Below are positions 386 through 16,833 of a stretch of DNA of 21,179 nucleotides, piece by piece. Both the position numbers and the translations under genes were made by a program. The DNA is from an uncultured delta proteobacterium (GTDB lineage: Bacteria > RBG-13-61-14 > DRUE01). The stretch lies in contig CAIYYW010000072.1 in assembly GCA_903930515.1 (NCBI GenBank), positions 1-21,179 of the forward strand, read 5' to 3'. A model generated the notes under the pieces. The model worked only from the letters and a program-made list of their open reading frames with translations. It had not been told where the DNA came from and did not search any database. The first letter of the stretch is position 1. Each line of letters begins with the position of its first letter.

Positions 386-1000
386 TTACGGTTGCGGTTG
401 GATGATCTTCCGGCCCGCTTGCTCCGCGGCGTGGAGCATCCGCGCCCAGAGCCGGTCGCGGCCTTCGCCGCTTCGCGCGGAAAACAACTCGACTTCCATC
501 CCCAGGGTCCGCGCCCGGCTTCTTATCTTTTCCAGGTTCCCCCGCCGTTCGCCCGCTTTCAATTTGTCCGACTTGGTCGCGACCATCAGCGCCTGGATCC
601 CCCGCTCCTTGAGCCACCACAACAAATCCAGATCGTCATCCTCCAGCCCCCGGCGCAAATCAACGATCACGATCACCAGTTTCAGTTGATCCCGTTTCTC
701 CAGGTATTCCTCCACCATCCCCTTCCAGCTTTGGCGCATCTCTTGGGAAACCTTGGCGTAGCCGTATCCGGGAAGGTCGGCGAGAGAAATCCCTCCGTTC
801 ACCAGGTAAAAATTAATCAGTTGGGTCCGGCCCGGAGTAACGCTGATGCGCGCCAGATTATGTCTTTGCATCAGGCAATTGATCATTGAACTCTTCCCCA
901 CATTGCTCCTGCCGCTGAACGCGATCTCGGGGAAAATCCCGCCGGGATACCCGTCAAAATCGCGGGCGCTGGTGAGGAAGACCGCTTCCTTGATTTTCAT
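386..1000 (-). CDS. engB: Ribosome biogenesis GTPase EngB (YihA/YsxC family)
   Basis: A 204-residue TRAFAC-class GTPase that in other bacteria acts in assembly of the large ribosomal subunit. All the G motifs can be read: G1 GRSNVGKS at 30-37, the TPGRTQ switch I signature at 55-60 (G2), G3 DLPG at 75-78 followed by the family-typical YGYA, G4 TKSD at 142-145 and G5 SAR at 174-176. The length is normal for the family. The frame is open upstream to 1072, but the start at 1000 is chosen because an AAGGAGGG site lies just upstream and because the ATG overlaps the TGA of the preceding YfhO gene (ATGA), which suggests translational coupling. EngB is a housekeeping gene and is an unexpected final member of a glycan operon. 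Family assignment is secure. Confidence 0.95.
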   Translation of the reverse strand: MKIKEAVFLTSARDFDGYPGGIFPEIAFSGRSNVGKSSMINCLMQRHNLARISVTPGRTQLINFYLVNGGISLADLPGYGYAKVSQEMRQSWKGMVEEYLEKRDQLKLVIVIVDLRRGLEDDDLDLLWWLKERGIQALMVATKSDKLKAGERRGNLEKIRSRARTLGMEVELFSARSGEGRDRLWARMLHAAEQAGRKIIQPQP

Positions 1001-3720
1001 CGTCCGGATTCCCTCCTTAAGCCCGGGATCAATAATAATGCCAGGCTCAGCAAAGTCCCTATTGCGGCCCAAAGCCCGACCTGGAAGGAGACCGGCTCAT
1101 ACCTGAACCTGACCCGGTGTTCCCCGGCCGGAATAAAAATCGCCCGCAGTGCCAGGTCCGCCCGGTAAATCCTGGTTGGTCTCCCGTCAACTTGCGCGGT
1201 CCAGCCTGGGAAATACTGGTCCGATCCCGCCAGGAAACAGGCCTGGGGGGTTCGTAATTCCAACTCCGTTAATACCGGATCATTCCGGACCGATTTCACC
1301 CAGCTTGATCCGCCCAGGTTTTTCCGCTCGTAGTCAAATTTGATCGCCTCCCCCAAAATCGCCTGGCTCCGGAAATATCCCGGCTGAACCGAATTCAAAT
1401 GCCGGAATAATTTCAGTTCCTCTTCCAAGTTCCGGACCGGCGCGATCCCGGCGTCCCGGACCAGGAAATACCTGGGAAAACCTTTCGCGAAATGATTGAG
1501 ACTCAATTCCCCTTTTTCCGTCAGGTTCTGCGCCCCGGCCGGCTCGTATCTCGGCGAATAGAACCTGAGACCGGCCCATGCCAGAAGGTCTCCCGAATTC
1601 CTCCCTTTGGGACCGCCTAAGCTCGCCAACGAAAGAGGCTGCCGCTCCCCGGCAAACCCCGGCTTGATCCGAACCGGCTTCCAGCCCCGGTCCGCCAGAC
1701 GCGATCCTGGATTCAAATACCGCGAATAGATCAGCCGCGATCCCTCCGGCCCGGAAATAAATATCTGAAACTGCGCCCCGTCTCCTTCCCATCTTCCCTC
1801 CCGGTCCAAAATCCCCGCGTCAAATAATATTTCCGCCGGACCCGGCTTGATGGAAAGTTCCGCCTGAATTTTGCCGTTGGAATAAGTCATCAGGGATTTT
1901 TTATCCTCTCCCGCGATCCCCACCGCTTGCTCCCTTGCCCAGCCCGCGAAATCCCCGGTCTCAATTCCCTCCTTGAGGATCGCCTCCGCAATCGGCCGGG
2001 TGTTGAGGGGGTAATTCGCGGAATAGAGCATCAGGTTCAGGACCGGGGCGAGGGCGGAATTTAAATGCTCGCGGTCAAGCTGGAACAGTTTATGCTCATT
2101 ATAGTGTTTGCTGATCTCGGCCTCATTCTTGAGATCATTGATGCTCGCCATCAAATACACATAAGTTTTCGGATAGAGCGGATCATAACTGCGCAGGTCG
2201 TCAACCTCGAGCGGCAATAACAGGTTCGGGAACAAAATGTCTCCCTCCGCGGAATAGCGGTACGGTTCGGGAAATAAATTTTGCGCCTGCCGGGCCTGGT
2301 CGGTCTGTTCAAATAAATATTCCGAAAGCTCCATCCCCCTGTTCATCCGATAGTCAAAATAGCCGGAACCGCATAAAGCCAGAATTACCAAAACCATTCC
2401 AAAATTCCGGAGCGATCCGAACCTCCCCAAAACCAAAACCGAAAGCAAAACCAGCGCCGCCAAAAACAGCCGGGCCATTTCCAGCTTGGCGCCGTAGCCG
2501 TAGAACGGCTGGAACCCGTTCCCGAGCGCGATCGCCAGGTTGACCCCGGCCCAAATCCAGGCGATGGCGATCGCTGAAAAATCCAGGCCCTTTCTCCCTT
2601 CCCGGAAAAATGCCGCCATCCCGAACCCGGACAGGACCGATACGCACAAGCTCAATACCGGGATCGCGTACTTGAAGTTATAGGTCAGGCTGATCGGATA
2701 TATCTTCCCCAGCCAACTGAAAGGCGGGATCCCGTAAATCAGCCCGAGCAGGACCGCGGACGCGCACACCCAGAAACCGATCCGGCTTAGGCTGGAGCCG
2801 ATCCCCATAAGCGCGCGCAGGCAAAATATTATCGTGATCACCCCCAGGCCCGGCATCAGGAACGGGATCAGCGTGCCCTCTGAATTCTTGCCGAAAAACC
2901 AAGGCAATAACATTGAAACCGCATACGCCAAATCCAGATGCCTGATCCCGGAATCCCCCTGGTGATAGGTCCAGGCCTGGCCCAGGTATTCATAAAAGGG
3001 AAGCCACTGGACGCTCGCGAGTAAAAAGCCGAAGGCCAGCGTCGAGCCTAGCAGCGCGAGCTTCCTGCCGTAACCAAGCGCGCCTTGCTTGCTGAACATA
3101 AAATAAAAACCGCTGAACCCGATCGCGTAAAGACTTGCTTCCGGAAATCCGCCGATGATCAAAAGATAGATCCCGAGTCCGGATAAAATCCAGAAGATCA
3201 ATTTCCTTTGCCCGGCCAGCTTGAAATATAAAAGCAACTGCAGCGGGATCAGACATTCCACATTCAGATGCGACATATAAACATACCTGAGAAAATATCC
3301 GCACAGAGCATAGCTCAACCCCGCAAAAAGTCCCGTGATAAAATCCAGCTTCAGCGCCGACCTGGCGAACAGGTAAAGAAAAAAGCCCGCCGCCCAGAGC
3401 CGGATAATCAACACCCAGTCAATCACCTTCCAGAACCCGAATAAATATTTCAGCCAGTTAAGCGGATAAAAAACCGCGCTCTGCATATTCGCCAGGTGCG
3501 GAACCCCTAAACCGTTGTGAGAATTCCAGAGCGGGAAAAAGCCCCCCCGCAATTGCTCGGCGGAAAACTGGTCCCACGGATAAAACCCGTAAACATTGGT
3601 GATGTCCTGGATCACCTCGGTGAAGATATAGCCCGACCCGAACAGCTTGTCCGAATATACCCCGATCAATACCAGCAACAGCGCCAGTCCCGCGCTGAAA
3701 TGTTCAATCCTTTTTGACAT
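997..3720 (-). CDS. YfhO-like multi-spanning membrane glycosyltransferase (GT-C type) with a carbohydrate-binding-like insert
   Basis: A 907-residue integral membrane protein of the YfhO family. In Firmicutes YfhO proteins are thought to transfer sugars from polyprenyl phosphate to cell-surface polymers such as teichoic acids. Residues 10-450 hold roughly a dozen hydrophobic spans. The first outer loop carries family-typical sequence: an acidic residue near 39, PLWN at 63-66, then GxPHLANxQ and FYPLN at 71-88. Residues 450-870 are mainly soluble. About 615-725 has the look of a beta-sandwich (FDAGILD, W-GDG-FQIFI, RYLNPG, W-G-RFYSPR), a pattern seen in carbohydrate-binding-like domains. The family C-terminal domain follows with YFPGW at 836-840, IYRA and the IPAGEH-VRFRY turn, then a last membrane helix at about 880-900. 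It overlaps the preceding paralog by 17 nt, and a GAGGA site precedes the ATG. The donor and acceptor are unknown. Confidence 0.85.
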   Translation of the reverse strand: MSKRIEHFSAGLALLLVLIGVYSDKLFGSGYIFTEVIQDITNVYGFYPWDQFSAEQLRGGFFPLWNSHNGLGVPHLANMQSAVFYPLNWLKYLFGFWKVIDWVLIIRLWAAGFFLYLFARSALKLDFITGLFAGLSYALCGYFLRYVYMSHLNVECLIPLQLLLYFKLAGQRKLIFWILSGLGIYLLIIGGFPEASLYAIGFSGFYFMFSKQGALGYGRKLALLGSTLAFGFLLASVQWLPFYEYLGQAWTYHQGDSGIRHLDLAYAVSMLLPWFFGKNSEGTLIPFLMPGLGVITIIFCLRALMGIGSSLSRIGFWVCASAVLLGLIYGIPPFSWLGKIYPISLTYNFKYAIPVLSLCVSVLSGFGMAAFFREGRKGLDFSAIAIAWIWAGVNLAIALGNGFQPFYGYGAKLEMARLFLAALVLLSVLVLGRFGSLRNFGMVLVILALCGSGYFDYRMNRGMELSEYLFEQTDQARQAQNLFPEPYRYSAEGDILFPNLLLPLEVDDLRSYDPLYPKTYVYLMASINDLKNEAEISKHYNEHKLFQLDREHLNSALAPVLNLMLYSANYPLNTRPIAEAILKEGIETGDFAGWAREQAVGIAGEDKKSLMTYSNGKIQAELSIKPGPAEILFDAGILDREGRWEGDGAQFQIFISGPEGSRLIYSRYLNPGSRLADRGWKPVRIKPGFAGERQPLSLASLGGPKGRNSGDLLAWAGLRFYSPRYEPAGAQNLTEKGELSLNHFAKGFPRYFLVRDAGIAPVRNLEEELKLFRHLNSVQPGYFRSQAILGEAIKFDYERKNLGGSSWVKSVRNDPVLTELELRTPQACFLAGSDQYFPGWTAQVDGRPTRIYRADLALRAIFIPAGEHRVRFRYEPVSFQVGLWAAIGTLLSLALLLIPGLRRESGR
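1546..1878 (-). other. Carbohydrate-binding-like beta-sandwich segment within the large YfhO protein
   Basis: This codes for residues of about 615-725 of the YfhO-like protein at 997-3720. The run of short hydrophobic strands, with FDAGILD, W-GDG, a RYLNPG turn and a closing WAGLRFYSP, resembles beta-sandwich domains found attached to other large membrane glycosyltransferases. The neighbouring paralog has no counterpart. Fold assignment is by pattern only. Confidence 0.4.
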
Positions 3721-5566
3721 ATCTTTTCCTCAAAATCCAAAAAGCGCAAAACATTATAAGGCCTGATAGGCTCGCCCACAACCCGACCCGGAAATCGTAA
3801 GCTTCCGACATAAAAATCCTTTTCATATTTCCGGCCGAGCCGTTGACGGTTTCCGGACCGAGACCCGGGGACAGCGAGATGATTTCAAAATCCCCCGCTT
3901 TCTTGATTGAGGCCTGTTGATGGTTGCCGATCAGGGCCGACAATTCCTTTCCCACCAGCCATTTGACTCCGGCCTCGCTGGCCAACCTGCTCAATCGGTC
4001 CGCGGATAGAGAGGCCTCGGTCAGCCTGAAATAATATTGCGGGTAAAAATATGTCAGCAAATCTTTATCCTCAATCTGGTTCAGTTCTTCCATCGTCCGA
4101 ACATAATCCTTCGGGAATAGCGCGTCCGAGCTGGCGATGTCATTCAGCCCATAGATCAGGGCAAGATTGGGAGGCAATGCCGGATCATCTCCGATGACGG
4201 CGATTCGATAGTATTTGCTTTCCGGGTCTCGCTGGATTTCCTTGATCCATTCCTGATGATCCAGGTCTTTCAGACCGAGCTTAAGATATGGCTTGATCTT
4301 GAAGCTTTGAAAATAGAGGCTCAGGAGCAGGGCCGAAAATATCAGGAACGAGATGGTTTTATTTCTTTTGTGGAATCCGCTCAAGCCCAATCCGGTCAAC
4401 AACGAAAGGCAGAAATAGATCTCCGAGAAATAGAACTTGAAATTGGACGCGCTGGAAAACCAGGGCAAAAAAGCCAGCCATCGGAAAGGCGCGAGGCCAT
4501 AGGTGAGTCCGAGCAGGAAAACCAAAACGACGGTGAAGAAGCTGAAATCGGCGCGGGATTTTTTCAGGCGCAGTAAGCCGGCCAAGGCGAGGAGCATAAC
4601 GATCACCCCCGCTCCGGGCATCAACCCGGGGCACGCGGTCCGGGCGTATCCCGCGTTGAAAACATTCGACGCGCCTCCTTTCAGCAACTCCACCAGGATT
4701 TTGCCCGGGCCTCGGTTAATTAAATTATAACCGGGCATGAACAGAGAGAGCACGGTGCTGATGTCAAGATGAAAAAATCCGAACCCGCTACCGTGCAAAC
4801 TCCAACAGCGCGGAAAGTAGTTGAAGAACGGCAGAAGCACGATCAAGGCCAGGCCGAGGGAAAGCGCCCCGGCAAAACCCGCGAGCAAGACCCGGCCCAG
4901 CATTTCCTTGCCGGGAAGATTCCGCGCGGATAATCTGAAAATAAAATAGAGGCCGCCTAAGACAAAACTGTTGAAAATAGGCTCGGGATGGCCGCCGAGG
5001 ATAATCAACCAGCCGATCAGCGCAAGGAGCAGGAAAGATTTCAGTCGCGGTCTTTCCGAGAGGTTGTGACACCCGATCAGAAATAGCGGCAGCAGGATTT
5101 GAGAATTAAGGTCCACCAGTTGCATAAACCATAATCCATAACCGCCCAGGGGCCAGACCAATGAGCCGGCCAGGCTCGGCAAAATTTCCAGCCGGAGCTT
5201 GCGCAAAAACAGGTAGAGAAAAAAAGCACCCAGCCAGAGCCTGGAAAAAAGCCAGAGCTGATATCCGAAATTCGGGCCCAGAATGTAAACGATGAAGTTA
5301 AGGGGATAGAAAACCGCGGTCTGCAGGTTGGCCAGATGCGGCTGTCCGAACCCGGTGGAAGGGTTCCAGAGCGGGAAGATCCCCTGCTTCAACTGTTCGC
5401 CGTTGAAAAACATCCAGGGCCGTTGCTGGAGCAATCCGGCCGGATCAATCAGGATGGCCTGATCCAGCGGCCCGAGCCGATGCCTCAGGGCGAGGAAAAA
5501 TATTCCCGCCACAAAAAATTGAATCAGGGCGATGGCGATCAGTTCTTTTTTTCCGGAATGGCTCAT
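3704..5566 (-). CDS. Second YfhO-like GT-C membrane protein, lacking the usual C-terminal domain
   Basis: A 620-residue paralog of the next gene. Its N-terminal two thirds align by eye: PLWN at 65-68, GFGQPHLANLQ and FYPLN at 72-90, a GGHPEP loop near 191-196 matching GGFPEA in the partner, and about a dozen hydrophobic spans to about 420. The outer soluble region is short (about 425-590). It runs straight into the last helix (RVGLWASLSGL at 593-603, matching QVGLWAAIGTL in the partner). The beta-sandwich and the YFPGW/IYRA/AGEH block of the larger paralog are absent. No frameshift is visible, so this is an intact shorter form, not a broken gene. It starts 10 nt after the DUF2304 stop with no obvious Shine-Dalgarno, suggesting reliance on upstream translation. 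Transferase function is inferred from the family. Confidence 0.8.
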   Translation of the reverse strand: MSHSGKKELIAIALIQFFVAGIFFLALRHRLGPLDQAILIDPAGLLQQRPWMFFNGEQLKQGIFPLWNPSTGFGQPHLANLQTAVFYPLNFIVYILGPNFGYQLWLFSRLWLGAFFLYLFLRKLRLEILPSLAGSLVWPLGGYGLWFMQLVDLNSQILLPLFLIGCHNLSERPRLKSFLLLALIGWLIILGGHPEPIFNSFVLGGLYFIFRLSARNLPGKEMLGRVLLAGFAGALSLGLALIVLLPFFNYFPRCWSLHGSGFGFFHLDISTVLSLFMPGYNLINRGPGKILVELLKGGASNVFNAGYARTACPGLMPGAGVIVMLLALAGLLRLKKSRADFSFFTVVLVFLLGLTYGLAPFRWLAFLPWFSSASNFKFYFSEIYFCLSLLTGLGLSGFHKRNKTISFLIFSALLLSLYFQSFKIKPYLKLGLKDLDHQEWIKEIQRDPESKYYRIAVIGDDPALPPNLALIYGLNDIASSDALFPKDYVRTMEELNQIEDKDLLTYFYPQYYFRLTEASLSADRLSRLASEAGVKWLVGKELSALIGNHQQASIKKAGDFEIISLSPGLGPETVNGSAGNMKRIFMSEAYDFRVGLWASLSGLIMFCAFWILRKRYVKKD

Positions 5567-5576
5567 TGATTTTTAT

Positions 5577-5939
5577 TCAGCCGGATCCGTTGGCCTTTTT
5601 CAGTTCTTCCAATTCCTTGCGCAAGAACGACATCTCGGTGATCACGCTCTGGATCTGGTCGGATAGCAGGGTGAACTTGACCGAGAAGTGGATGCTGATC
5701 AGCACGATGAAGAGCAGCGCGAACAGGAACAAGGTGGTGGTGGGAGTGACCGCTCCGATCATTTTGGAGACCTCGAGCAGGAGCGGATATCCGATCACCA
5801 GAATCAGCATCCCGATCCCGGTCGCCAGCCACAACAGCGCGTATTCCTCCCGGAGCTTGCGCCGCTTGATCAGAACCGCGACCAGCACAATCAGGGCCGC
5901 GCAGGCCGCGATCGCGAATATTTTTTGTTTAATCAGCAC
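5577..5939 (-). CDS. DUF2304 small membrane protein, likely partner of the adjacent GT2
   Basis: A 120-residue protein with three hydrophobic helices at about 6-24, 35-52 and 66-84. After the first comes the basic RRKLREEYALLW stretch typical of DUF2304, and the C-terminus (about 92-116) is a charged, heptad-like coiled coil. DUF2304 proteins are usually encoded beside DPM1-like glycosyltransferases. From memory, GacJ of the streptococcal group A carbohydrate pathway is of this kind and stimulates the Und-P-GlcNAc synthase GacI. The start is a GTG at 5939, chosen because an AAAGGAGGG site lies 10 nt upstream, inside the 3' end of the GT2 gene. The two genes overlap by 11 nt. Probable role: membrane anchor or activator of the upstream GT2. 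Confidence 0.85.
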   Translation of the reverse strand: MLIKQKIFAIAACAALIVLVAVLIKRRKLREEYALLWLATGIGMLILVIGYPLLLEVSKMIGAVTPTTTLFLFALLFIVLISIHFSVKFTLLSDQIQSVITEMSFLRKELEELKKANGSG

Positions 5940-6666
5940 TTTCCATCTCCCTCCTTTTCTGCTTCAAATCCAAACGCAAAGCGAAATGAACCATACTCAC
6001 GCTCATCTTGGCCAAATAATAAGCGGGCTTTAGGACGCCGGAATGCATTGACCCGGGCCGCCGGGCCGGCCTCATCCTGACCGGCATTTCCTGGATCCGG
6101 TATCCCATCCGGCTCAGCATAATCACCACATCCGCGTCCGGGAAATCGAGCGGGAATAATTTGCTCGTGAAAACTTTGGCGATCTTCCGGGTCAGGCCGA
6201 GCATCCCGCTGGTGGGATCGGTGATCCTCTGGCCGATCAGGGCGCTGGTGGCGACGCTGAAAATTTTGCTCCCGATTTTTCGCGCCGCGGGAGCCGAGGA
6301 ATCGTCGCTCATCAAAAACCTGGACCCGATCAGATAGTCGCTCTCATTTTTCCGGAGCGGGTTCATCAGCGGTTCCAGGAAAGCGGGATCGTGCTGTCCG
6401 TCCGCGTCAAAAGTCAGGAAAAAAGAAACCTTGGAATATCGCAGGCCGTAGCTGAACCCGGTCTTGAGCGCGGCGCCATAACCGAGGTTGGCGGAATGCC
6501 TCAGCGTTTCCGCGCCGGCCTCCCTGGCCCTCAAGCCGGTGTCATCCTGAGACCCGTCATCAATGACCAGGATCCGGGAGGCAAACTTTTTCAACTCGGC
6601 CAAAGTATCCCCGATCACCGCGGCCTCGTTGAACGCGGGGATGATCACCAGCGCGTCTTCAATCAT
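5929..6666 (-). CDS. DPM1-like GT2 glycosyltransferase without membrane anchor
   Basis: A 245-residue GT-A fold enzyme of family GT2, similar to polyprenyl/dolichyl-phosphate sugar synthases. Seen in the sequence: PAFNE at 10-14, DDGS at 36-39, the DADGQHD metal-binding block at 87-93 and SGxLGLT near 153-159. There is no C-terminal pair of membrane helices, unlike the other two DPM1-like GT2s in this operon. That fits use of the neighbouring DUF2304 protein as membrane partner. The frame is open to 6741, but the start at 6666 is chosen because its ATG overlaps the TGA of the preceding GT4 (ATGA) and AGGAG lies upstream. The likely reaction is transfer of one sugar from a nucleotide sugar to polyprenyl phosphate on the cytoplasmic face. 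The sugar cannot be told. Confidence 0.85.
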   Translation of the reverse strand: MIEDALVIIPAFNEAAVIGDTLAELKKFASRILVIDDGSQDDTGLRAREAGAETLRHSANLGYGAALKTGFSYGLRYSKVSFFLTFDADGQHDPAFLEPLMNPLRKNESDYLIGSRFLMSDDSSAPAARKIGSKIFSVATSALIGQRITDPTSGMLGLTRKIAKVFTSKLFPLDFPDADVVIMLSRMGYRIQEMPVRMRPARRPGSMHSGVLKPAYYLAKMSVSMVHFALRLDLKQKRREMESAD

Positions 6667-7811
6667 TTCCCGACCAGCTCCTGATAAATTTCCTTGACCT
6701 GCTCCGCGACCCTTTGCCAGCTTAAATTCTTCCGGATCCAATCTTGAGCGCTCCTGATCTCATCTTTCATTTTCTCCCGGTCCAGCCTGAGCGCGATGTT
6801 CGCGATCTCCTCCGCGTCCGCATAAGGAACCACGAATCCGCCTTGGCTTTTTTTGATCCATTCCCCGGCCCCGCAATCGTCCGCCACGATCGCGGGAGTG
6901 CCGCACAAAATGGACTCGAACTGGACCAATCCGAAAATCTCGTATTCGCCCGCGTAAACCGTGACCAGGGCCTCGCGATAAGCCGCTTCTTTCCAGGGCG
7001 AGTTGAGCAGGCCGGTGAAGACCACGCGCCCGGTCACTCCGAGCCTTTTGGCCAGCGCTTTCAATTTCGGCATCATCCCCATATCATTCCCAGCGATCAC
7101 GGCCTGAATTTTATGGTCCGTCAAAAATGTGAGCGCCTCAATCACATACTCAATCCCTTTGCGCGGAGTGAGCTTGCCCAGGTAAAGGATATAATCGCCC
7201 TTGATCCCGAACTGCTCCTTGAAATTCACGCCCGGGTCCGGGTTCTCTACCAAAACCCCGTTGGGAACCACCCGGATTTTTTCTCCGCTGATCCCCAGTT
7301 CCAGGAACTGCCTCTTCTCCGCCTCGCTCACCGCGATCAAGACCGAGGCCTGGGCGACTTCTCTCCTCCCGGACCAGAGATCGTAAACGGACTTAAGCCC
7401 CTGTCTCCTTTCAATATTGACCAGCGTGCCGTTGGGCTGGAGCAGGATCGGAACTTTTGCCTCGCCGGCCCAGCGGTTGATCCGGCGGTTGAGCAGATTG
7501 CGGTGGCCGTGAATATGGACCAGGTCAAAATTTTTGATTCCGGCTTTTTCCTTCGCGATCCCGCGCGGGAAAAAGAATTGCCGGTCATAGGCAAGCCGGT
7601 TGCTTAAATTTTTATAAGCGCGAACCGCGATGCCGTCAATGTTGAAATTTAAATCCGCGCTCCGGCTCTCCCGGTCAAAGGCGTCGGTGGTCACCGCTTC
7701 CACGGAAACGCCGAGCTTGACCAGGTTGGCGCAGAGGTGATAGCTCAAGCGGGGGATCCCGCCGTAAGCCCAAGCCGGATAAAAATAGGGCGCTGAATGC
7801 AAAACTCGCAT
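6663..7811 (-). CDS. GT4 family glycosyltransferase
   Basis: A 382-residue GT-B fold retaining glycosyltransferase. The N-terminal domain opens with PYFYPAWAYGGIPRL (about 8-22), the acceptor-side glycine loop of GT4. HIHGHRN at 99-105, VPNGV at 182-186 and GKLTPRKGIEYVIEAL at 212-227 (start of the nucleotide-sugar domain) are typical. The EX7E catalytic pair is intact (E291 and E299 in EIFGLVQFE), followed by CGTPAI. It shares one base with the preceding gene (TGATG), so the two are probably translationally coupled. It would add a sugar to a lipid-linked glycan in the cytoplasm. Donor specificity cannot be read. Confidence 0.9.
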   Translation of the reverse strand: MRVLHSAPYFYPAWAYGGIPRLSYHLCANLVKLGVSVEAVTTDAFDRESRSADLNFNIDGIAVRAYKNLSNRLAYDRQFFFPRGIAKEKAGIKNFDLVHIHGHRNLLNRRINRWAGEAKVPILLQPNGTLVNIERRQGLKSVYDLWSGRREVAQASVLIAVSEAEKRQFLELGISGEKIRVVPNGVLVENPDPGVNFKEQFGIKGDYILYLGKLTPRKGIEYVIEALTFLTDHKIQAVIAGNDMGMMPKLKALAKRLGVTGRVVFTGLLNSPWKEAAYREALVTVYAGEYEIFGLVQFESILCGTPAIVADDCGAGEWIKKSQGGFVVPYADAEEIANIALRLDREKMKDEIRSAQDWIRKNLSWQRVAEQVKEIYQELVGK

Positions 7812-9007
7812 CAGCCTTTAACCACCTCCGCGTAAAAATTCGCCACTTCCGGCCAACTATATTTTTTTACTTTTTCCCCATCTACCTTGAGTCCCTCTCG
7901 CAACACTTTTTTCACAGCCCTTGCGATCGCTTCCGGGCTGGATTCGCCGATCTCGAAAAAACCCGCCTGCTTCAGTTCCGAAGGGACCGAGCAATAAACC
8001 GTCCCGATCACGGGCTTGCCCGCGGCCAATCCTTCCAGAACCACCACCGGCATCCCCTCGCTCTCGCCGTAGCGGTCCGGGATAGATGGCACAACCACCG
8101 CGTCCGCCAGATGATAAAGCAAAACCGCGGTTTGATGCGGAACCGCGCCGAGGAATTTTACCTGATGGCTCAATCCCGAATTTCGCGCTTGCTGTTCCAG
8201 GCCGGGCAGGAGCAAGCCTTTGCCCGCGATCAGCAGCTTCAATTTCGGAAATTCCCGCAGGAGCAAACCGAGCGCTTCAATCAGGTTGCTTACCCCTTTC
8301 TTCTCCGTGAGCTTCCCGATGAACAAGAGCACCGGATGATCTTCCAGCGCGAGTTCTTTCCTCATTTTTCCCAGTTCGCCCTGATCGGGATGTTGAAATT
8401 TTTCCGGCTCAAACCCCATCGGCATTATAAACAGGTTCGCCCCGGCCCGGATCTTTTTGATACCGTCGGCCATTGTTTGGTTCACCGGGATCAATGCTTT
8501 GGACCATCCCGCGATCAGCCGGATCATAAATTTCCCGGCCGGCATCCGGGAGAGCTGGAAATAATCCGCGGCGTGGACCGTGGCAATATGAGGGATCCGG
8601 CGCGGCCGGCATAAAATCGAGAAGATCAGACCGCTCGGGATCAGCCAGTGGCTGTTGACCGCGTCAAATCCGCGCTTGCGTAAAATCCTAAGCCCGGCAA
8701 AAAATTCCGCGAGCAAAAACGAGATCAGGGCGGCCCAGGCGGATTTCCTCTGCCGGAGATGGTTCTGAAGGCCCTGGCCGTCGGCGAGGAATTCCCATTT
8801 TTCCGGCAGATACCGGAACCGGAAAATTTCCATCCCGTTCCAGACCTCGTGCCGGGCCGAACCGGGAAAGTGCGGAGCCAGAACCGTGACCTCAAAATAT
8901 TTCTGGAGATGGTCGGCCAGATCAAACACGAACGGGGCCGGGCCGGGGTCGTTCTCCCAGCGCGGGAAAGTGGTGGATACGATCAACAGCCGGGGCCTGA
9001 TTCCCAT
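7811..9007 (-). CDS. GT4 family glycosyltransferase
   Basis: A 398-residue GT-B enzyme of family GT4. Near the N-terminus STTFPRWENDPGPAPFV is a usual opening of this subgroup. HAADY (about 145-149) lies in the acceptor domain, and FIGKLTEKKGVSNLIEAL (about 229-246) opens the donor domain. GESEGMPVVVLEGLAAGKPVI carries an intact EX7E pair (E317 and E325). The frame allows a start at 9025, but ATG at 9007 is preferred because AGAGGA lies about 7 nt upstream of it. This is the first gene after the only sizeable gap in the operon, and a promoter-like pair lies just upstream. A role in glycan assembly is inferred from family and context. Confidence 0.9.
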   Translation of the reverse strand: MGIRPRLLIVSTTFPRWENDPGPAPFVFDLADHLQKYFEVTVLAPHFPGSARHEVWNGMEIFRFRYLPEKWEFLADGQGLQNHLRQRKSAWAALISFLLAEFFAGLRILRKRGFDAVNSHWLIPSGLIFSILCRPRRIPHIATVHAADYFQLSRMPAGKFMIRLIAGWSKALIPVNQTMADGIKKIRAGANLFIMPMGFEPEKFQHPDQGELGKMRKELALEDHPVLLFIGKLTEKKGVSNLIEALGLLLREFPKLKLLIAGKGLLLPGLEQQARNSGLSHQVKFLGAVPHQTAVLLYHLADAVVVPSIPDRYGESEGMPVVVLEGLAAGKPVIGTVYCSVPSELKQAGFFEIGESSPEAIARAVKKVLREGLKVDGEKVKKYSWPEVANFYAEVVKG

Positions 9008-9105
9008 TCTTTTTCCTCTTTCCATTCTACCCCAACTCGCAGATCAGGCCAAAGATCTGGAAAAGGAATTTTCGCTTTTGGTCACGCAAAGAGGCGGGCT
9101 GTAAT
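9008..9105. other. Only sizeable gap in the operon (98 nt)
   Basis: The gap separates the GT2 at 9106-10068 from the GT4 ending at 9007. It holds a promoter-like pair on the minus strand (see separate entry) and a weak 6-bp inverted repeat, CAGATC at 9040-9045 with GATCTG at 9054-9059. There is no T-tract, so it is not a convincing terminator. No minus-strand gene fits. Confidence 0.5.
9024..9052 (-). promoter_or_regulatory. Possible internal promoter
   Basis: On the minus strand, TTGGCC (9052-9047, 4 of 6 to TTGACA) is followed after exactly 17 nt by TAGAAT (9029-9024, 5 of 6 to TATAAT). A start about 7 nt on would give a very short leader that still contains the GGA before ATG 9007. It lies in the only gap of the operon, which adds weight. 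It could let the second half of the cluster, including engB, be expressed on its own. Confidence 0.35.
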
Positions 9106-10068
9106 TTATTTTTGGGACTGATCTTGTTCTCCGGCTTCCAGCTTCCGCACCCGGTAAACCAGCTCTTCCAGCATCTTGCGGTTGCCGGCGATCAAGTCCG
9201 CGAGCAGGCCGATCAACATGGTCTGGAACCCGATGGTCAGGAGCGCCGCGGCCAGGATCAATATCTGGATATGACCCTTGCCCCCGACGGTGAAGAAATA
9301 ATAAAGGAACCAGATTCCGATCCCGAAACCGCCGAGAAAAATCACGCTTCCGATGGCGAGAAAAATTCTCAGCGGCTCATACCGCGAAAAAGTTCTGAGC
9401 ATAGCTTCCAAACTCCTTGTTAAATATTGACCCGAATTCCGATAGAGCCGGCTGGTCCGGCCCGGCTGGGGGTTTACCGGAACCGATACCCAGGCGGTTT
9501 TGATTTGATTCCGGCCCGCCTCAATCAGGGTTTCCATGGTGTAAGAAAATTTCCCCAACACATTGAGCTTGAGGCCGGCCTCCCGGGAAAAGGCGCGGAA
9601 ACCGCTGGCCGCGTCCCTGACCTCCACCCCGGCCAGGATTCCCACGAAGGCGCTCCCGATTTTCTGGAGAAAAAGTTTGAAGGATGAATATCCGGGAATT
9701 TCCTTCAGCCTCCTCTCCCCGACCACCATCCCGGCCTGGGATTTTAGTATCGGCTCAATCAGGCGCGGGATCTCGGATCCCGGATATTGATGATCGCCGT
9801 CGGTGTTGACAATGATGTCCGCTCCCCTTTTCAGGCCGGCCTCCATCCCGATCCGGAAGGAATTGGCCAAACCGGTTTTCTTGCCGGTCTGAATAATTTG
9901 ATCGGCGCCGGCTTTGCCGGCAAATTCCGCGGTCCGGTCCTCGCTGCCGTCGTCAATCACGATCACTTCCACCCGGTCAATCCCGGGAATCCGGCGCGGT
10001 ATTTCCTGGATGGTCTGCGTGATGCTGTCCTGTTCGTTGTGGCAGGGGATCTGGACCACCAGTTTCAT
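9106..10068 (-). CDS. Polyprenyl-phosphate GT2 glycosyltransferase with two C-terminal membrane helices
   Basis: A 320-residue protein with a GT2 catalytic domain: QIPCHNE at 6-12, DDGS at 39-42, and TDGDHQY at 89-95 supplying the DxD metal site. Two long hydrophobic helices follow at about 235-260 and 267-293, then a charged helical tail that is probably cytoplasmic. This is the architecture of DPM1/GtrB-like enzymes that load a sugar onto polyprenyl phosphate. The frame extends to 10110, but the ATG at 10068 is chosen: it lies 2 nt after the epimerase stop, and MKLVVQIPCHNE is a normal N-terminus. The residues before it look non-homologous. It follows the epimerase directly, so the epimerised sugar may be its substrate (inference). 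It is the last gene before the 98-nt gap. Confidence 0.88.
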   Translation of the reverse strand: MKLVVQIPCHNEQDSITQTIQEIPRRIPGIDRVEVIVIDDGSEDRTAEFAGKAGADQIIQTGKKTGLANSFRIGMEAGLKRGADIIVNTDGDHQYPGSEIPRLIEPILKSQAGMVVGERRLKEIPGYSSFKLFLQKIGSAFVGILAGVEVRDAASGFRAFSREAGLKLNVLGKFSYTMETLIEAGRNQIKTAWVSVPVNPQPGRTSRLYRNSGQYLTRSLEAMLRTFSRYEPLRIFLAIGSVIFLGGFGIGIWFLYYFFTVGGKGHIQILILAAALLTIGFQTMLIGLLADLIAGNRKMLEELVYRVRKLEAGEQDQSQK

Positions 10069-10070
10069 TC

Positions 10071-11195
10071 TTATTTGACCAGCCCCTTTGATTTGAGTTC
10101 GCCCAGGCACTTGTCCGCCAAATCCAAAACTCCCTCTTCTTCTTTGGCCCAGTCCAAAAATTCCGGCAGGCCCTCTTCAAATTTTATTTTCGCCTCGAAG
10201 CCGATAATCTCTTTCGCGCGCCGCGGATCCGAGTAGCAATGCCTGATGTCTCCGACCCGGAAATTGCCGGTGATCATCGGCGCTTCCTTCCCGCCCAATC
10301 CCCTGCTCACGGCATTGACCACCTCCAGCACGCTCAAGGCCCGGCCGGATCCGACATTGAGCACGAGCTGGTCTTTGCCCTGCCACTTGAGCGCGGCCAG
10401 GTTCGCCCGCGCGATATCCTTGACATTGACAAAGTCGCGGGTCTGTTTGCCGTCCTCGAAAATGATCGGAGGCTTTTGGTTGAGCACGCGGCTGGCCGTG
10501 ATCGCGAGCAGGCCGGTGTAGGGATTGCTCAGGGCCTGGCGCGGCCCGTAAACATTGAAATACCGGAAGGCCACGGTCGGGATTTTATAAGCGGCGCCGA
10601 CGACCAGGAACAACTCCTCGGTGGTTTTTTTGGTGATCGCGTAAATGGATTCGCAGATGGTTCGCTTGTCCTCGTCCGTGGGCGCCGGGTTCAGGACCGA
10701 CCCGCAATTACCGCATTCCATTTCCCACCGCCTGGCGTTGAGCTGGGCCTCGCTCCGGGTCTTGGGCGCGACCGGCCCGCATTTCGGGCAGAGATACCGC
10801 CCTTCTCCGTAAATGGACATTGAACTCGCGGTCACCAGTTTCCGGATCCGGTCCCGATGTTCAACCACCGACTGGAGCAACACCGCGGAAGCGCCGTCAT
10901 TGTTCAGCACATAGCGGTCAACCTGGTACATTGACTGGCCCACCCCGACCAGGGCGGCCTCGTGAACCACCGCGTCCACCCGGCTCATTACGCTGTCCAC
11001 CAGCTTCTTGTCCCGGACATCTCCGTAAATAAATTCCGCCTTGCGGTTGAAATATTCCGGCGCGGTTTTCCCGCCCCCATGAACCTGGGGATCCAGGTTG
11101 TCAATCACCACCACCTGGCAGCCGCTCTCCACCAGCAGGTCCACGATATGCGACCCGATGAATCCGGCGCCCCCGGTGACCAACACTTTCTCCAT
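10071..11195 (-). CDS. NAD-dependent sugar epimerase (extended SDR) with zinc-ribbon insert; possibly dTDP-L-rhamnose 4-epimerase
   Basis: About 374 residues. The Rossmann motif TGGAGFIGSHI lies at 8-18 (numbered from the upstream ATG), Asp33 in VIDNLD suggests NAD binding, SSMSIYG at 125-131 holds the catalytic Ser, and Tyr186/Lys190 (YAITK) complete the triad. An insert of about 45 residues carries two Cys pairs, CPKC at 137-140 and CGNC at 162-165, forming a probable zinc ribbon. From memory, such inserts mark a subgroup annotated as dTDP-L-rhamnose 4-epimerase (WbiB-like), which makes dTDP-6-deoxy-L-talose. No rhamnose pathway genes lie in this window, so the substrate is uncertain. Two tandem ATGs are possible. 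AGGAGG is 2 nt before the first (11198) and 5 nt before the second (11195), so the second is preferred. It is 9 nt from the preceding gene. Confidence 0.88.
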   Translation of the reverse strand: MEKVLVTGGAGFIGSHIVDLLVESGCQVVVIDNLDPQVHGGGKTAPEYFNRKAEFIYGDVRDKKLVDSVMSRVDAVVHEAALVGVGQSMYQVDRYVLNNDGASAVLLQSVVEHRDRIRKLVTASSMSIYGEGRYLCPKCGPVAPKTRSEAQLNARRWEMECGNCGSVLNPAPTDEDKRTICESIYAITKKTTEELFLVVGAAYKIPTVAFRYFNVYGPRQALSNPYTGLLAITASRVLNQKPPIIFEDGKQTRDFVNVKDIARANLAALKWQGKDQLVLNVGSGRALSVLEVVNAVSRGLGGKEAPMITGNFRVGDIRHCYSDPRRAKEIIGFEAKIKFEEGLPEFLDWAKEEEGVLDLADKCLGELKSKGLVK

Positions 11196-11197
11196 CA

Positions 11198-11206
11198 TAT
11201 CCTCCT
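11198..11206 (-). promoter_or_regulatory. Strong ribosome binding site that decides the epimerase start
   Basis: AGGAGG occupies 11201-11206 on the minus strand and overlaps the TAG stop of the preceding GT4. It is followed by ATATGATG. Only the second ATG (11195) has normal spacing of 5 nt. The first (11198) is only 2 nt away. It is the best Shine-Dalgarno match in the operon and may raise epimerase output relative to the poorly led genes upstream. Confidence 0.6.
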
Positions 11207-12356
11207 AATCCTGACAAAATTTCTCTTTCAGCTTTGACAAAATCGCCATCCCGATGCTTTGCCAGGCGCATTTTTCCTGAAACAGCCGACGCCCGTTTTC
11301 AGCGATGCCCTTCCGGAGCGCGGGATTATTTTTCAGCAATAATATTTTTTCCGCCAAGGCCCTGCCGTCTCCCATCGGGCTGAGCAGGCAATGTCTGCCG
11401 TTTTCAAGCAGCTCCCTCGCGGCCGGGCTGTCTCCGGTGATCAGGGGCCGGGCCAGGGCCAGCGCCTCGTAAGCCTTGTACGGGATCACCCGGCCGGCTT
11501 TTTCCGTGACGCCGAAAATCCCCAGCAGCAGATCCGCGGCCGCGGCCTTTTGCACCAGGTCCTGATGCCTGAGCCATTCAATGAACCGGACATTGGCAAG
11601 CCCGAGCTGTTCCGCCCGCGCCTTGATCTCGGGATAGAGCTGGCCCTTGCCGATCAGGGTGAAGCGGACGCCGGAATCATCCCGCAGGATTTCCGCGGCC
11701 TGAAGGATCACTTCCAGGCCGTGGAGCGGGATGTAGGAGCTGTAATTAACCACTTCCAGAATCCCGTCATCTTCCGGGGCGGGGCGCGGATAAAAATTAT
11801 CCTGGTCCACCCCGAGCGGCACCGACAGGAACCGCTCCGGAGCGAGTCCGAACTCCCGGCAAAAATATTTGATATGCTCATCGGTGTCCAGCAAACACAG
11901 GTCCGAGCATTTCACGCTCCAGCGGTCAATCAGCCTTAAGATAAACGCCATCAAAGAGCCATCGGCATAAAGCCCGCGATCCTTGACCATTGTATCATAA
12001 AGCGAATAAAAGGCATCAAAAACGATCGGGCGGCGATGAAATATTTTGAGGATCCGCGCGAGGAACACATCCAATTGCCCGATGTATCCGACGATCATAA
12101 AATCAAACGGTTGGGCCTTGCGGTATTGTTTGAGCAGATGTAAATATGCCCGGAGCAGCGCGAGCAGGTTCGCGGACACCCCCCGCTTGACCGCTCCCAT
12201 CTTGTCCTGGAACCCGGGCCAGAGTTCGGCGTGACACTCTTCCACCTCGGCGCCGACTTCTCTGAGGCCGTTGATCAGGGCGAGGTTCCGGGCGTACTCC
12301 TCGCCCGCGGAGTAGGTTCCGAAGTAAAGTATTTTTATCCGTTTTTCTGAAGCCAT
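11205..12356 (-). CDS. GT4-like glycosyltransferase with an incomplete EX7E motif
   Basis: A 383-residue GT-B protein. The N-terminal domain opens with ILYFGTYSAGEEYARN. VPLGVD (about 199-204) and IGKGQLYP in the donor domain are GT4-like, and a C-terminal helix closes the fold. In the donor loop, GRVIPYKAYEALALARP, the second catalytic glutamate is present but the first position of EX7E is Arg. A Lys or Arg with the IPxKxYEALA form is common in some O-antigen GT4s, so activity is still likely. It overlaps the radical SAM gene by 22 nt. No strong ribosome binding site precedes it, pointing to coupled translation. Specificity is unknown. Confidence 0.85.
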   Translation of the reverse strand: MASEKRIKILYFGTYSAGEEYARNLALINGLREVGAEVEECHAELWPGFQDKMGAVKRGVSANLLALLRAYLHLLKQYRKAQPFDFMIVGYIGQLDVFLARILKIFHRRPIVFDAFYSLYDTMVKDRGLYADGSLMAFILRLIDRWSVKCSDLCLLDTDEHIKYFCREFGLAPERFLSVPLGVDQDNFYPRPAPEDDGILEVVNYSSYIPLHGLEVILQAAEILRDDSGVRFTLIGKGQLYPEIKARAEQLGLANVRFIEWLRHQDLVQKAAAADLLLGIFGVTEKAGRVIPYKAYEALALARPLITGDSPAARELLENGRHCLLSPMGDGRALAEKILLLKNNPALRKGIAENGRRLFQEKCAWQSIGMAILSKLKEKFCQD

Positions 12357-13702
12357 CTGCTCAACCGGAAACCGCTTTTGATTAGATCAATTATTCCCCG
12401 GGGCCGGAGCGCGGAGCGGATCAGATACCCGGGCCGGAAATAAAATTCCCGATATGCCTCTTTCATTATTTCCCGGAGCCGGTCCTCGGTCCAGTAGTCG
12501 GTGATCAGGAGCGGCCTGGTTTCTCCGTATTCTTCCGGGGCCGGCCCGCTCGCTTCTCGGTACCATCCTTTTTCCAGGGCCATTTGATAAAGCCTGCTTC
12601 CCGGGAACGGGCTCAGGCTCCCGAACTGAACATAGTCCAGGCCAAGCTCGATTGCGAATTGAACGGTCCGAATTTCTTCCTGGTATGTTTCAATGGGGAT
12701 GCCGAAGATGAAGTATCCCAGAACCTTGATCCCGGCTTTTTTGGTCAGCGAAACCGCCTGCCGGATCTGGGCCGCGCTCACTCCCTTGTTCAGCCAGTCC
12801 AAGCTCTTCTGATGCGCGCTCTCGATCCCGTAAGCGATGACCTCGCACCCGGCGCGCTTCATCCAGGAAAGCATTTCCGGGTTTTGAATATTTACCCTGC
12901 CCTCGCATTTCCAGTTTATTTTTACGCCGCGCTCCAGGATTAACCGGCATATTTTTATCACCCGCTCGGGGTTGAGCGTGAACAGGTCGTCGTAAAAAAT
13001 TATTTGCCGCACTCCCCATTTCCGGCTCAACTCCGCGATCTCATCCACAACCTTTTCCGGGCTTCGCGAACGGAACCGGGTCCCGCAAACCGACTGGTCG
13101 CAGAAGATACATTGATAGGGACAGCCCCGGCTGGAGATAATGGTCGCGATTTTTTTCCCGGGCAATAACGGGTGTCGGTATTTTTTCATCGGGAGCAAAT
13201 CCCAGGCCGGAAACGGGATCGAGTCCAGGTCGGAAACCGGGACCGGCTCGCAAGAGCGGTTTCGAGAAATCAACCCGGGGAGGTCGGGATTTTTTTCTCC
13301 GGCCAGAAGCAGTTTCACCAACTGCGGAAATTGTTCCTCGCCCTCTCCCCGGAATCCAAAATCCAGCTCCGGACATTCCTCAAAAATTTTTCCCTTAACC
13401 GCGCTCGGGTGCGGCCCGCCCAGGATCAGCCATTTCGCGTCCCGCCGAATTTTTTTCCCGAGCCGGTATGCGGATTTGGAGAGCGGGGTAGTGGAAGTGA
13501 TGCCGACGATTTCAGGTTGGAGGATGGAAACCGCTCGGGCCGCTCCGTCCAGGTCCAGGCCCAGCGCCGGCGCGTCAATGATCTTTACGCTGATCCCCGC
13601 GTTTCTCAAAGCCGAGGCCAGGTAGGCGATCCCCAGGGGCGGAACTTTCAGGGCCGGAGTTGCGCCCGGGATCGGAGGATTGATCAATACCACTTGGCTC
13701 AT
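12335..13702 (-). CDS. Cobalamin-binding-domain radical SAM protein (BchE/class B-like)
   Basis: A 455-residue protein with two parts. Residues 1-130 form a Rossmann-like domain of the B12-binding type (LINPP at 6-10, GITSTTPLS at 67-75, GGPHPS at 95-100). The usual DxHxxG lower-axial histidine is not evident, as in several families of this class. The radical SAM core follows with SSRGCPYQCIFC, whose Cys194, Cys198 and Cys201 bind the 4Fe-4S cluster. YDDLFTLN, the glycine- and glutamate-containing AYGIES segment and GIPIET are typical of the Elp3/MiaB-type core. Related enzymes do methylations, cyclisations and lipid or sugar modifications. Set within a glycan operon, modification of a sugar or lipid carrier is a fair inference, but the substrate is unknown. 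It starts 1 nt after the preceding stop. Confidence 0.88.
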   Translation of the reverse strand: MSQVVLINPPIPGATPALKVPPLGIAYLASALRNAGISVKIIDAPALGLDLDGAARAVSILQPEIVGITSTTPLSKSAYRLGKKIRRDAKWLILGGPHPSAVKGKIFEECPELDFGFRGEGEEQFPQLVKLLLAGEKNPDLPGLISRNRSCEPVPVSDLDSIPFPAWDLLPMKKYRHPLLPGKKIATIISSRGCPYQCIFCDQSVCGTRFRSRSPEKVVDEIAELSRKWGVRQIIFYDDLFTLNPERVIKICRLILERGVKINWKCEGRVNIQNPEMLSWMKRAGCEVIAYGIESAHQKSLDWLNKGVSAAQIRQAVSLTKKAGIKVLGYFIFGIPIETYQEEIRTVQFAIELGLDYVQFGSLSPFPGSRLYQMALEKGWYREASGPAPEEYGETRPLLITDYWTEDRLREIMKEAYREFYFRPGYLIRSALRPRGIIDLIKSGFRLSRWLQKNG

Positions 13703-14717: not shown

Positions 14718-15874
14718 CAACTCAACCCCTGATATATTTCCAGAATCTTGCGCGCAACTTTTTCCCAACTGAATTTTTCCAGCGCCCGCTCCCGTCCCTT
14801 CTTCCCCAACTCTTTGCCCCGCGCCGGATCCTCCAGAAGCCGCTCCATTGCGACGGCCAGGCCCAGGGCGTTTTTCTCGGAATCCAACCCAAGCCCCGCG
14901 TACTCGGCGCAATCCCCGGCCAGCTCCCGGTCCACCGGCCGGTCAAAACAAACCATCGGCAGGCCCATTGAGAGGTAATTGAGGATTTTTCCGTTCCCCT
15001 CGCTGCTCGCGATCTTGGGAGCGATTGCCAGGTCTCCGAGGGCGAGAAATTTTTCCGCCTGGAAATAATCCACCCGGCCGGTGAACCTGACGGTTTTTTC
15101 CAGACCCATTTTCGCGGCCCTTGCGGGATATTCTCCCAGGGGATATCCCATAATCAGGAATTGCGTTTTCCGTTTTCTTTCCATAAGGATTTGCGCGGAC
15201 CGGAGCAAGAGTTCCACGCCCTGGTAACGGTTGAGCAAGCCCAGATAGACCACCGTCGGCAGGTCCGGATCCAGCCCCATCTTTTGCTTCATCCCCGGCT
15301 CCGGCGGTATCGGGGCAAACCTCTCCGTGTCCACCCCGTCTCCGATCACCGCGGCTTTGCCCTTGGCCTCCATCCCAAGCTCGCTCATCAGCGAGGCGCA
15401 ATTGAGCAGGATCCGGTCGGAGCGGGAATTGATCCGGGATTCCAGGCCGCGGGTGAACGCGGAAATCGGCCAGGGCCGGAACAGGGGCTGATGCTCGCTC
15501 AGTTCGCGGGACAAGCTCCCCTGGTAGTCAAAGACCAGGGGCAGATTTTCTTTTTTAGCCAGCAGACCCAGGAAAGCTCCTTCGTGAAGATGGCAATGGA
15601 TCAGGTCCGGCGGATCCTTTTTTAGCTGAGACCGGAGCCTGAAGAACAGAGACCAATCCGCGAACGGCTTTCGCAGGCTCGGGCCGGCCTCCAGTTTTTG
15701 ATATTGACCGGCTCTCCTGATCTCCAGGCCCGGCAAGTCCTTGCCGGCCCGGTAGGTCAGGATGGTGATATTAACTCCCAGGCGAGAGAGCCAGCGGGCC
15801 TCTTCGTAAATCCGGATATGACAACCCCGGTCGGAAAAAAAGGGAGTGGGGGCCACCAACAAAACCCGCCTCAT
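14717..15874 (-). CDS. GT4 family glycosyltransferase
   Basis: A 385-residue GT-B enzyme. The opening LVAPTPFFSDRGCHIRIYEEARWL is typical of GT4 (SDRG loop at 14-17). CHLHEG at about 94-99, GDGVDTERFAP after the interdomain linker and YLGLLNRYQGVELLLRSA mark the two Rossmann domains. In the donor loop SSEGNGKILNYLSMGLPMV, the first Glu of the EX7E motif is present and the second position is Tyr. This variation occurs in some GT4 subgroups, so it is not taken as proof of inactivity. The start shares one base with the preceding stop (TAATG). A role in building a surface glycan is inferred. Confidence 0.9.
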   Translation of the reverse strand: MRRVLLVAPTPFFSDRGCHIRIYEEARWLSRLGVNITILTYRAGKDLPGLEIRRAGQYQKLEAGPSLRKPFADWSLFFRLRSQLKKDPPDLIHCHLHEGAFLGLLAKKENLPLVFDYQGSLSRELSEHQPLFRPWPISAFTRGLESRINSRSDRILLNCASLMSELGMEAKGKAAVIGDGVDTERFAPIPPEPGMKQKMGLDPDLPTVVYLGLLNRYQGVELLLRSAQILMERKRKTQFLIMGYPLGEYPARAAKMGLEKTVRFTGRVDYFQAEKFLALGDLAIAPKIASSEGNGKILNYLSMGLPMVCFDRPVDRELAGDCAEYAGLGLDSEKNALGLAVAMERLLEDPARGKELGKKGRERALEKFSWEKVARKILEIYQGLS

Positions 15875-16833
15875 TATTCAAAGCCGATTTTTTCCCGGAT
15901 CACATAAGTGGGCTTGTCCTGGCTCTCATAATAGGTTCGGATCCCGATCTCGCCCAGCAGTCCGAGGGCGACGGATTGCATCCCCAGGATCGTCAGCAGG
16001 GTTCCCAGGATCAGGAACGGGTTTCCGGTCATATCAACCTGCTGCAGGACCTTCATCAGGATCATTACCAGGTAGAAGACGGCGCCGATCAGGGAAAGCA
16101 AAACCCCGGCCAGGCCGAAGAAGTGGAGCGGCCTGCGGAAGTATCCCACGAAAAACTTGAGGGTGACCAGGTCAAAGATCACATTGAAAATGCGAAACAA
16201 ATTGTATTTGGATTTTCCGCTCCCGCGCGCCCGGTGGTTGACCGCTATTTCCTTGATCCGCGCCCCTCCCCAGAAGGCCAGGGCCGGGATCATCCTATGC
16301 ATTTCCCCGTAAAGGCGGATGTCCTTGATGATTTCCGAGCGATATACCTTGAGGGTGCATCCGAAATCTTTCAAGCGCAAGCCGGTGAAAAATCCGATCA
16401 TCCAATTGGCGATCCGGCTGGGGAGGATGCGGGATAGGTAACGATCCTTCCGATCTTTCCTCCAGCCGCTGACCAGGTCATATCCCTGCCCCATAATCTC
16501 CAGCATTCCCGGGATATCCGCGGGATCGTTCTGACCGTCTCCGTCCAGGGTTACAATCAACTCTCCCCGGGCCGCGGAAATACCGGCGCTGAGCGCGGAA
16601 GTCTGTCCGAAGTTCCTCCCTAACTTGATCCCGCGAAATTCAGGGTATCGGGCTTGGGCCTGCTTGATCATCTCCCAGCTTTGGTCCGCGCTGCCGTCAT
16701 CCACCACCAAAACTTCAAAATCCAAGCCGGCCCGACGCAGGACTCCTGTCAATTCCTCAAACAAGGGCGCCAGCGCCGATTCTTCATTGTAAACCGGGAT
16801 CACCACAGAAATCTTTTTAGCATATTGGACCAT
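15874..16833 (-). CDS. CsbB/GtrB-type polyprenyl-phosphate glycosyltransferase (two C-terminal membrane helices)
   Basis: A 319-residue protein and the first gene of the operon. The GT2 domain has VIPVYNEE at 11-18, DDGS at 45-48, GRNFGQ at 72-77, and LDGDGQNDP at 96-104 with D97 and D99 as the metal site. HRARGSGKSKY at 200-210 is the conserved loop before the membrane part. Helices are at about 237-262 and 273-297. GtrB and CsbB proteins of this form charge undecaprenyl phosphate with glucose or GlcNAc for later transfer outside the cell. CsbB works with YfhO in Bacillus, and two YfhO-like proteins lie at the far end of this operon. No GtrA flippase is present. No clear Shine-Dalgarno precedes the ATG. 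Confidence 0.92.
   Translation of the reverse strand: MVQYAKKISVVIPVYNEESALAPLFEELTGVLRRAGLDFEVLVVDDGSADQSWEMIKQAQARYPEFRGIKLGRNFGQTSALSAGISAARGELIVTLDGDGQNDPADIPGMLEIMGQGYDLVSGWRKDRKDRYLSRILPSRIANWMIGFFTGLRLKDFGCTLKVYRSEIIKDIRLYGEMHRMIPALAFWGGARIKEIAVNHRARGSGKSKYNLFRIFNVIFDLVTLKFFVGYFRRPLHFFGLAGVLLSLIGAVFYLVMILMKVLQQVDMTGNPFLILGTLLTILGMQSVALGLLGEIGIRTYYESQDKPTYVIREKIGFE

Follow-up and report, generated by a model that had tools for sequence, protein, structure and literature searches.

A predicted GacI/GacJ-type synthase pair followed by two YfhO-type proteins in a glycan operon of an uncultured delta proteobacterium

Introduction

Do a soluble GT2 glycosyltransferase, a small DUF2304 membrane protein and two large YfhO-type membrane proteins, encoded one behind the other in a glycan operon, form a single pathway, and does the lipid-linked sugar of the first two reach one or both of the others? 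These questions are raised by a contig of 21,179 nucleotides from an uncultured delta proteobacterium, analysed here over its whole length (the window) and belonging to a 3.65 Mb assembly of 401 contigs. An earlier note, made from the letters alone, had likened the four genes to GacI, GacJ and GacL of the streptococcal group A carbohydrate pathway and had proposed a side-chain decoration system in which two tandem YfhO proteins are the transferases.

Results

Gene order and operon

The four genes lie near the end of an operon of 14 minus-strand genes, which runs from position 16833 down to 386, its neighbouring genes overlapping or lying no more than 80 nt apart. In operon order it consists of a GT2 (15874-16833), a GT4, a GT2, a B12-binding radical SAM enzyme, a GT4, a NAD-dependent sugar epimerase/dehydratase (10071-11198; PF01370, 149 bits), a GT2 (9106-10068) and two further GT4s (7811-9025 and 6663-7811, the latter GT4a). 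Next come the GT2 of interest (5929-6666), the DUF2304 gene (5577-5939), YfhO1 (3704-5566) and YfhO2 (997-3720). The operon thereby holds four GT4s and several GT2s besides the one at 5929-6666. Its last gene encodes the GTPase EngB/YsxC (386-1000; PF01926, 65 bits), whose function is probably unrelated to that of its operon neighbours. The radical SAM enzyme (12335-13702, minus strand) has BchE and HpnJ as its nearest models, with scores far below their cut-offs.

The four genes are translationally coupled on the minus strand, as the earlier note had described. The GT2 and DUF2304 genes overlap by exactly 11 nt, and the DUF2304 gene starts with GTG, preceded by a AGGAGGGAG site. YfhO1 follows after 10 nt and overlaps YfhO2 by 17 nt, while overlaps of 4 nt join GT4a to the GT2 at one end and YfhO2 to engB at the other.

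Had this gene order been unique to the contig, it would have spoken against a functional module. That possibility is rejected: L035, the one other genome sampled from the genus, has the same four-gene order. Between these two species the dN/dS ratios of the four genes range from 0.16 to 0.27, and all four are therefore under purifying selection. We do not take the four-gene arrangement to be a product of chance.

A soluble GT2 and its DUF2304 partner

The GT2 (245 aa, ATG start; PF00535, 82 bits) has a DPM1-like GT-A fold with no predicted transmembrane (TM) helix, and its relatives in the PDB are DPMS, ArnC and GtrB, in agreement with its earlier description as an anchor-less DPM1-like enzyme. 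It is predicted to be a polyprenyl-phosphate-sugar synthase of the GacI/WpsA/PpgS type. The DxDxQ metal site is present, with D87, D89 and Q91 invariant in the GT2 alignment. R129 is invariant as well, and we infer that it is the counterpart of WpsA Arg140, the phosphate-binding arginine described for WpsA and DPMS. The best NCBIfam model is PpgS (NF058614); at 120.5 bits against an equivalog cut-off of 370, an assignment to PpgS itself is rejected.

Where most relatives have PE.E, the GT2 reads PDAD, a form that is also found in a clade of relatives. PDAD in place of PEPE or PEVE occurs in the DUF2304-linked GT2s of L035, L042, L046, L065, L066, L068, L069, L071, L099 and the window, and the proposed catalytic glutamate of WpsA may correspond to this position or to one close by. 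In a tree of 106 GT2s the window GT2 falls within a 19-row clade that includes L046, and a special tie between these two is not resolved there.

The 120-residue protein encoded behind it has three TM helices and belongs to DUF2304, as suspected from its sequence (PF10066, 64.5 bits against a cut-off of 25.5). It is of the GacJ/WpsB/Rv3632 type of GT2 partner, and its gene is the sole copy above cut-off in the genome. A sequence search returned no solved DUF2304 structure.

The pair is common across phyla

A scan of named genomes that used GT2 profiles only as query gave 80 loci from many phyla. DUF2304 was directly downstream of the GT2 in 57 of these and fused to it in one. The total of 58 of 80 is a minimum, since the set contains mis-split open reading frames. 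Independent searches for DUF2304 found it above cut-off in 22 of 116 genomes and then in 56 of 386; of the neighbourhoods inspected, 19 among the first 20 and at least 35 among the following 40 had a GT2 either fused to DUF2304 or immediately upstream of it.

In the natural DUF2304-GT2 fusions, DUF2304 forms the N-terminal part. One such fusion from another genome was modelled (pLDDT 86, pTM 0.79), and the model matches ArnC, DPMS and GtrB. At another locus (L043, 6294-7967) a reading frame of 557 aa carries its DUF2304-linked GT2 domain at the C-terminal end. We also compared the presence of DUF2304 with the membrane anchoring of the GT2 itself: it accompanies none of the six GT2s with at least two TM helices of their own and 58 of the remaining 73 (Fisher p = 2e-4, with the cut picked post hoc), whereas with the cut at one TM helix the difference is not significant (p = 0.16).

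Membership of PF10066, the coupling of the two genes across genomes, the natural fusions and the published biochemistry of the same pair (PMC10821137, PMC8327497, PMC9671496) all agree with the GacI/GacJ parallel drawn in the earlier note. By homology, the GT2-DUF2304 half is assigned to the same type of polyprenyl-phosphate-sugar synthase as the published pairs GacI/GacJ, WpsA/WpsB and PpgS/Rv3632, and this assignment is well supported.

Two YfhO-type proteins, one of them short

The two large membrane proteins had been called YfhO-like, and neither reaches the profile cut-off by itself. YfhO2 (907 aa) scores 28.0 bits with PF09586, whose gathering cut-off of 28.5 it misses by 0.5 bit; YfhO1 (620 aa) has no Pfam match. 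Their orthologues in G002, a genome of the same order, pass the cut-off with 37.3 bits (YfhO1) and 37.2 bits (YfhO2), and YfhO1 and YfhO2 align with 30% identity.

The model of YfhO1 (pLDDT 70.6, pTM 0.78) resembles OST, PglB, AftD, ArnT and PMT enzymes (Foldseek best E 1.8e-5; VIA Z 17-25 over 318-474 residues), with Z 24.8 and rmsd 4.2 over 444 residues for yeast STT3 and Z 23.6 for AftD. YfhO1 is thus predicted from its model to have the GT-C fold. Because the G002 orthologues pass PF09586 and the YfhO1 model has this fold, we regard both proteins as YfhO proteins: YfhO2 as a full-length YfhO-type GT-C transferase, and YfhO1 as a short form that is without the C-terminal PGWxAxxDG region. 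A sequence search returned no solved structure for YfhO2. Among NCBIfam families YfhO2 matches PgfM1 and PgfM2 alone, weakly at about 20 bits where the cut-offs are 1400-1500, and an assignment to PgfM is rejected.

The G002 orthologue of YfhO1 is 889 aa long and keeps the C-terminal region (AYPGWRAWVDG), which is also where its PF09586 match falls, so the 620-aa YfhO1 is probably a shortened YfhO. A decaying pseudogene is rejected, since its dN/dS is 0.23 and both genomes of the genus share the short form.

An acidic residue stands in the first outer loop of both proteins, D41 in YfhO1 (E in L035) and D39 in YfhO2. D41 opens the first outer-loop helix of the model, and D or E stands at or near this place in the aligned YfhO sequences that extend over it.

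The transferase slot beside the pair

The slot beside GT2-DUF2304 pairs varies in its occupant, and the neighbours include PMT_2-type proteins, tandem multi-TM proteins bearing TPR repeats, DUF7657/DUF7654 proteins and DUF2142 proteins. YfhO is rare: among about 61 DUF2304 neighbourhoods in a broad sample, it adjoins the pair in the window, in L035 and in two unrelated genomes (L046 and L209), and the same YfhO profile found none beside the pairs of the named-genome set. In L046 (G058; 3891-7235) a YfhO fused to an LPG_synthase_TM domain (PF03706, flippase-like) directly follows GT2-DUF2304, possibly a transferase-flippase fusion; a search for further DUF2304 genomes in the phylum of G058 returned G058 only. 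In L209 (G308) the order is YfhO-GT2-DUF2304, and the YfhO scores 93.9 bits.

The tandem multi-TM proteins with C-terminal TPR repeats stand behind GT2-DUF2304 in L042 (8335-14121), L070 (11067-15429) and L182 (918-6975), with at least three, two and three members respectively, and in L182 a MurJ-family protein is encoded just upstream of the array.

The complete order GT2-DUF2304-YfhO1-YfhO2, whose frequency across genomes the earlier note proposed to survey, was found only in the two genomes of the window's genus and in no other lineage, in a sample that represents the phylum by three genomes. G002 carries a matching array with relatives of GT4c, GT2b, GT4b, GT4a, the GT2 and the DUF2304 gene, among them relatives of the GT4 at 7811-9025 and of the GT2 at 9106-10068 at matching positions. 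The next gene after its syntenic DUF2304 encodes a different polytopic protein, which matches no Pfam model, and the YfhO1-YfhO2 tandem of G002 lies on another contig. The window's own genome encodes about ten YfhO-type proteins (contigs C357, C214, C156, C197, C289, C317, C368, C133 and C169); because most of them have no GT2 alongside, YfhO proteins are independent of the GT2-DUF2304 pair.

These observations would fit a reading in which GT2-DUF2304 is part of the glycan operon proper, with the YfhO tandem as a separate unit that came to lie behind it in this genus, since the tandem is conserved away from the pair in G002 and stand-alone YfhO proteins are many. Against it are the tight overlaps, the order kept within the genus, the independent placing of a YfhO beside the pair in L046 and L209, and the filling of the same place elsewhere by other types of multi-TM transferase, which suggests that the slot is functional. 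We consider mere neighbourhood of this kind quite unlikely.

A proposed pathway

In the scheme that we favour as a whole, and regard as probable, the DUF2304 protein with its three helices would hold and activate the soluble GT2 at the cytoplasmic face, where the enzyme would load polyprenyl phosphate with a sugar taken from a nucleotide-sugar, as expected from the characterised pairs. A flippase not linked to these genes would then invert the lipid-linked sugar. Finally, one or both YfhO proteins, with the modelled GT-C fold and an active site outside, would pass the sugar to an acceptor on the outer side, either the surface glycan that the remaining operon genes make or a protein of the cell surface.

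Several findings sit less easily with this scheme. The window's genes include no recognised flippase, and a search of the genome for GtrA family members gave none; the tandem is apart from the syntenic pair in G002, with a different polytopic protein behind that pair; and YfhO is mostly stand-alone in the genome, with two other lipid-sugar synthases in the same operon. Regarding the flippase, the YfhO-PF03706 fusion of L046 makes the PF03706 family a candidate, and the genome encodes five PF03706 proteins outside the window.

The fold model and the G002 orthologues support the YfhO proteins as GT-C transferases. Both may draw on the product of this GT2, but the operon encodes two more DPM1-type GT2s and the YfhO pair is separate in G002. 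The GT2 at 9106-10068 is AglJ-like, with C-terminal TM helices of its own. The one at 15874-16833, the first operon gene, has three TM helices and is ArnC/PgfS-like (PRK10714, 214 bits; PgfS, 145 bits; both below the cut-offs of those models). Both are candidates for an alternative source of lipid-linked sugar, and one YfhO may use the GT2-DUF2304 product and the other the product of one of these anchored enzymes. The separation of the YfhO pair from GT2-DUF2304 in G002 favours such a split, as does the closeness of the 15874-16833 enzyme to ArnC and to PgfS, which in S. mutans works with two membrane proteins, PgfM1 and PgfM2 (PMC5856776). In both genomes of the genus, however, it is DUF2304 and not one of the other GT2s to which the YfhO genes are directly coupled, and we hold separate donors to be possible rather than likely.

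The surrounding glycosyltransferases also allow for the building of an oligosaccharide. In Lactococcus, WpsA/WpsB primes a repeat unit that cytoplasmic glycosyltransferases extend (PMC10821137). By analogy, the lipid-linked monosaccharide may be a primer extended in the cytoplasm by the GT4 and GT2 enzymes, with the YfhO proteins transferring or finishing the oligosaccharide. Four GT4s and several further GT2s do accompany the pair in the 14-gene operon, and the GT4s that adjoin it are kept in the same genus and the same order. However, neither a Wzy-type polymerase nor a Wzx-type flippase was recognised in the window, and we treat this reading as tenable but doubtful.

Within the favoured scheme of transfer outside the membrane, YfhO1 and the full-length YfhO2 probably work either in sequence, each adding a residue, or jointly. 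A stricter version would unite them as obligate subunits of one transferase that a single GT2-DUF2304 pair supplies, with YfhO1, its C-terminal outer region lost, and YfhO2 dividing catalysis and acceptor recognition between them. A 2021 review speculated on catalysing and acceptor-recognising subunits for small GT-C enzymes (PMC8035078); for the present pair we think this unlikely.

The acceptor proposed in the earlier note, a polysaccharide that receives side chains, is one option only, and a protein acceptor fits equally. Just upstream of the operon, an open-ended reading frame (16956-21179, minus strand) encodes a G/T/A-rich protein of at least 1407 aa with internal repeats, 17.7% Ser+Thr and no Pfam match. 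It may be a surface protein and the acceptor of glycosylation. Its place next to the operon recalls cnm-pgfS of S. mutans (PMC5856776), a resemblance only.

Discussion

The GacI/GacJ-type synthase emerges from this survey as a widespread plug-in unit, present in Omnitrophota, Nitrospirota, Chloroflexota, Bacillota, Actinomycetota and some archaea. Its outer-face partner is exchangeable (PMT-like, TPR-bearing tandem membrane proteins, DUF7657, DUF2142 or YfhO), and the window adds YfhO pairs to this list. The partner swap behind a syntenic synthase within one order offers a natural case for asking what sets the choice of donor and acceptor.

The synthase half, YfhO working with a GT2, and two membrane proteins in one pathway are all already known. 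The combination of GT2-DUF2304 with two YfhO proteins is a lineage-specific variant, of which we found no description in the literature searched.

Comparison with known systems

The GacI-GacJ(-GacK-GacL) system of the S. pyogenes group A carbohydrate side chain shares with the window an adjacent soluble GT2 and three-helix DUF2304 protein as well as a GT-C transferase. GacJ enhances GacI, and DUF2304 has been named as typical of GacJ-like proteins (PMC8327497). GacL is a single protein annotated as PMT-2 (PMC8035078), whereas the window has two YfhO proteins and no recognised Wzx (GacK) gene.

The same GT2-DUF2304 pair is found in WpsA/WpsB of L. lactis and EpaI/EpaJ of E. faecalis, there in the context of a rhamnan backbone. 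WpsA/WpsB makes GlcNAc-P-C55; an artificial WpsB-WpsA fusion is active and the reverse WpsA-WpsB fusion inactive, natural GacJ-GacI fusions have been reported, and an AlphaFold2 model of the WpsA/WpsB complex is published (PMC10821137). For EpaI/J there are two candidate membrane proteins, EpaP and EpaQ (PMC8327497).

PpgS, the mycobacterial polyprenyl-phospho-GalNAc synthase, is assisted by Rv3632 (PMC9671496) and with Rv3779 serves the galactosamine of M. tuberculosis arabinogalactan. PpgS is the best-scoring named family for the window GT2, and the small membrane helper and separate transferase are also alike (PMC9671496, PMC3485146). The differences are the score of the window GT2, far below the PpgS cut-off, and the transferase Rv3779, encoded away from the pair by locus number.

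In CsbB/GtcA/YfhO of B. subtilis, S. aureus and Listeria, which glycosylate lipoteichoic acid, a GT2 makes the lipid-sugar and YfhO transfers it outside (PMC8035078), as proposed here; unlike the window, this system has a membrane-bound CsbB, the GtrA-type flippase GtcA, no DUF2304 and one YfhO. PgfS-PgfM1-PgfE-PgfM2 of S. mutans protein glycosylation likewise joins one GT2 to two large membrane proteins, both required (PMC5856776), but PgfS is membrane-bound, no DUF2304 is described, and YfhO2 scores far below the PgfM cut-offs. Given CsbB/YfhO (PMC8035078), PgfM1/PgfM2 (PMC5856776) and EpaP/EpaQ (PMC8327497), the YfhO tandem of the window is not unprecedented.
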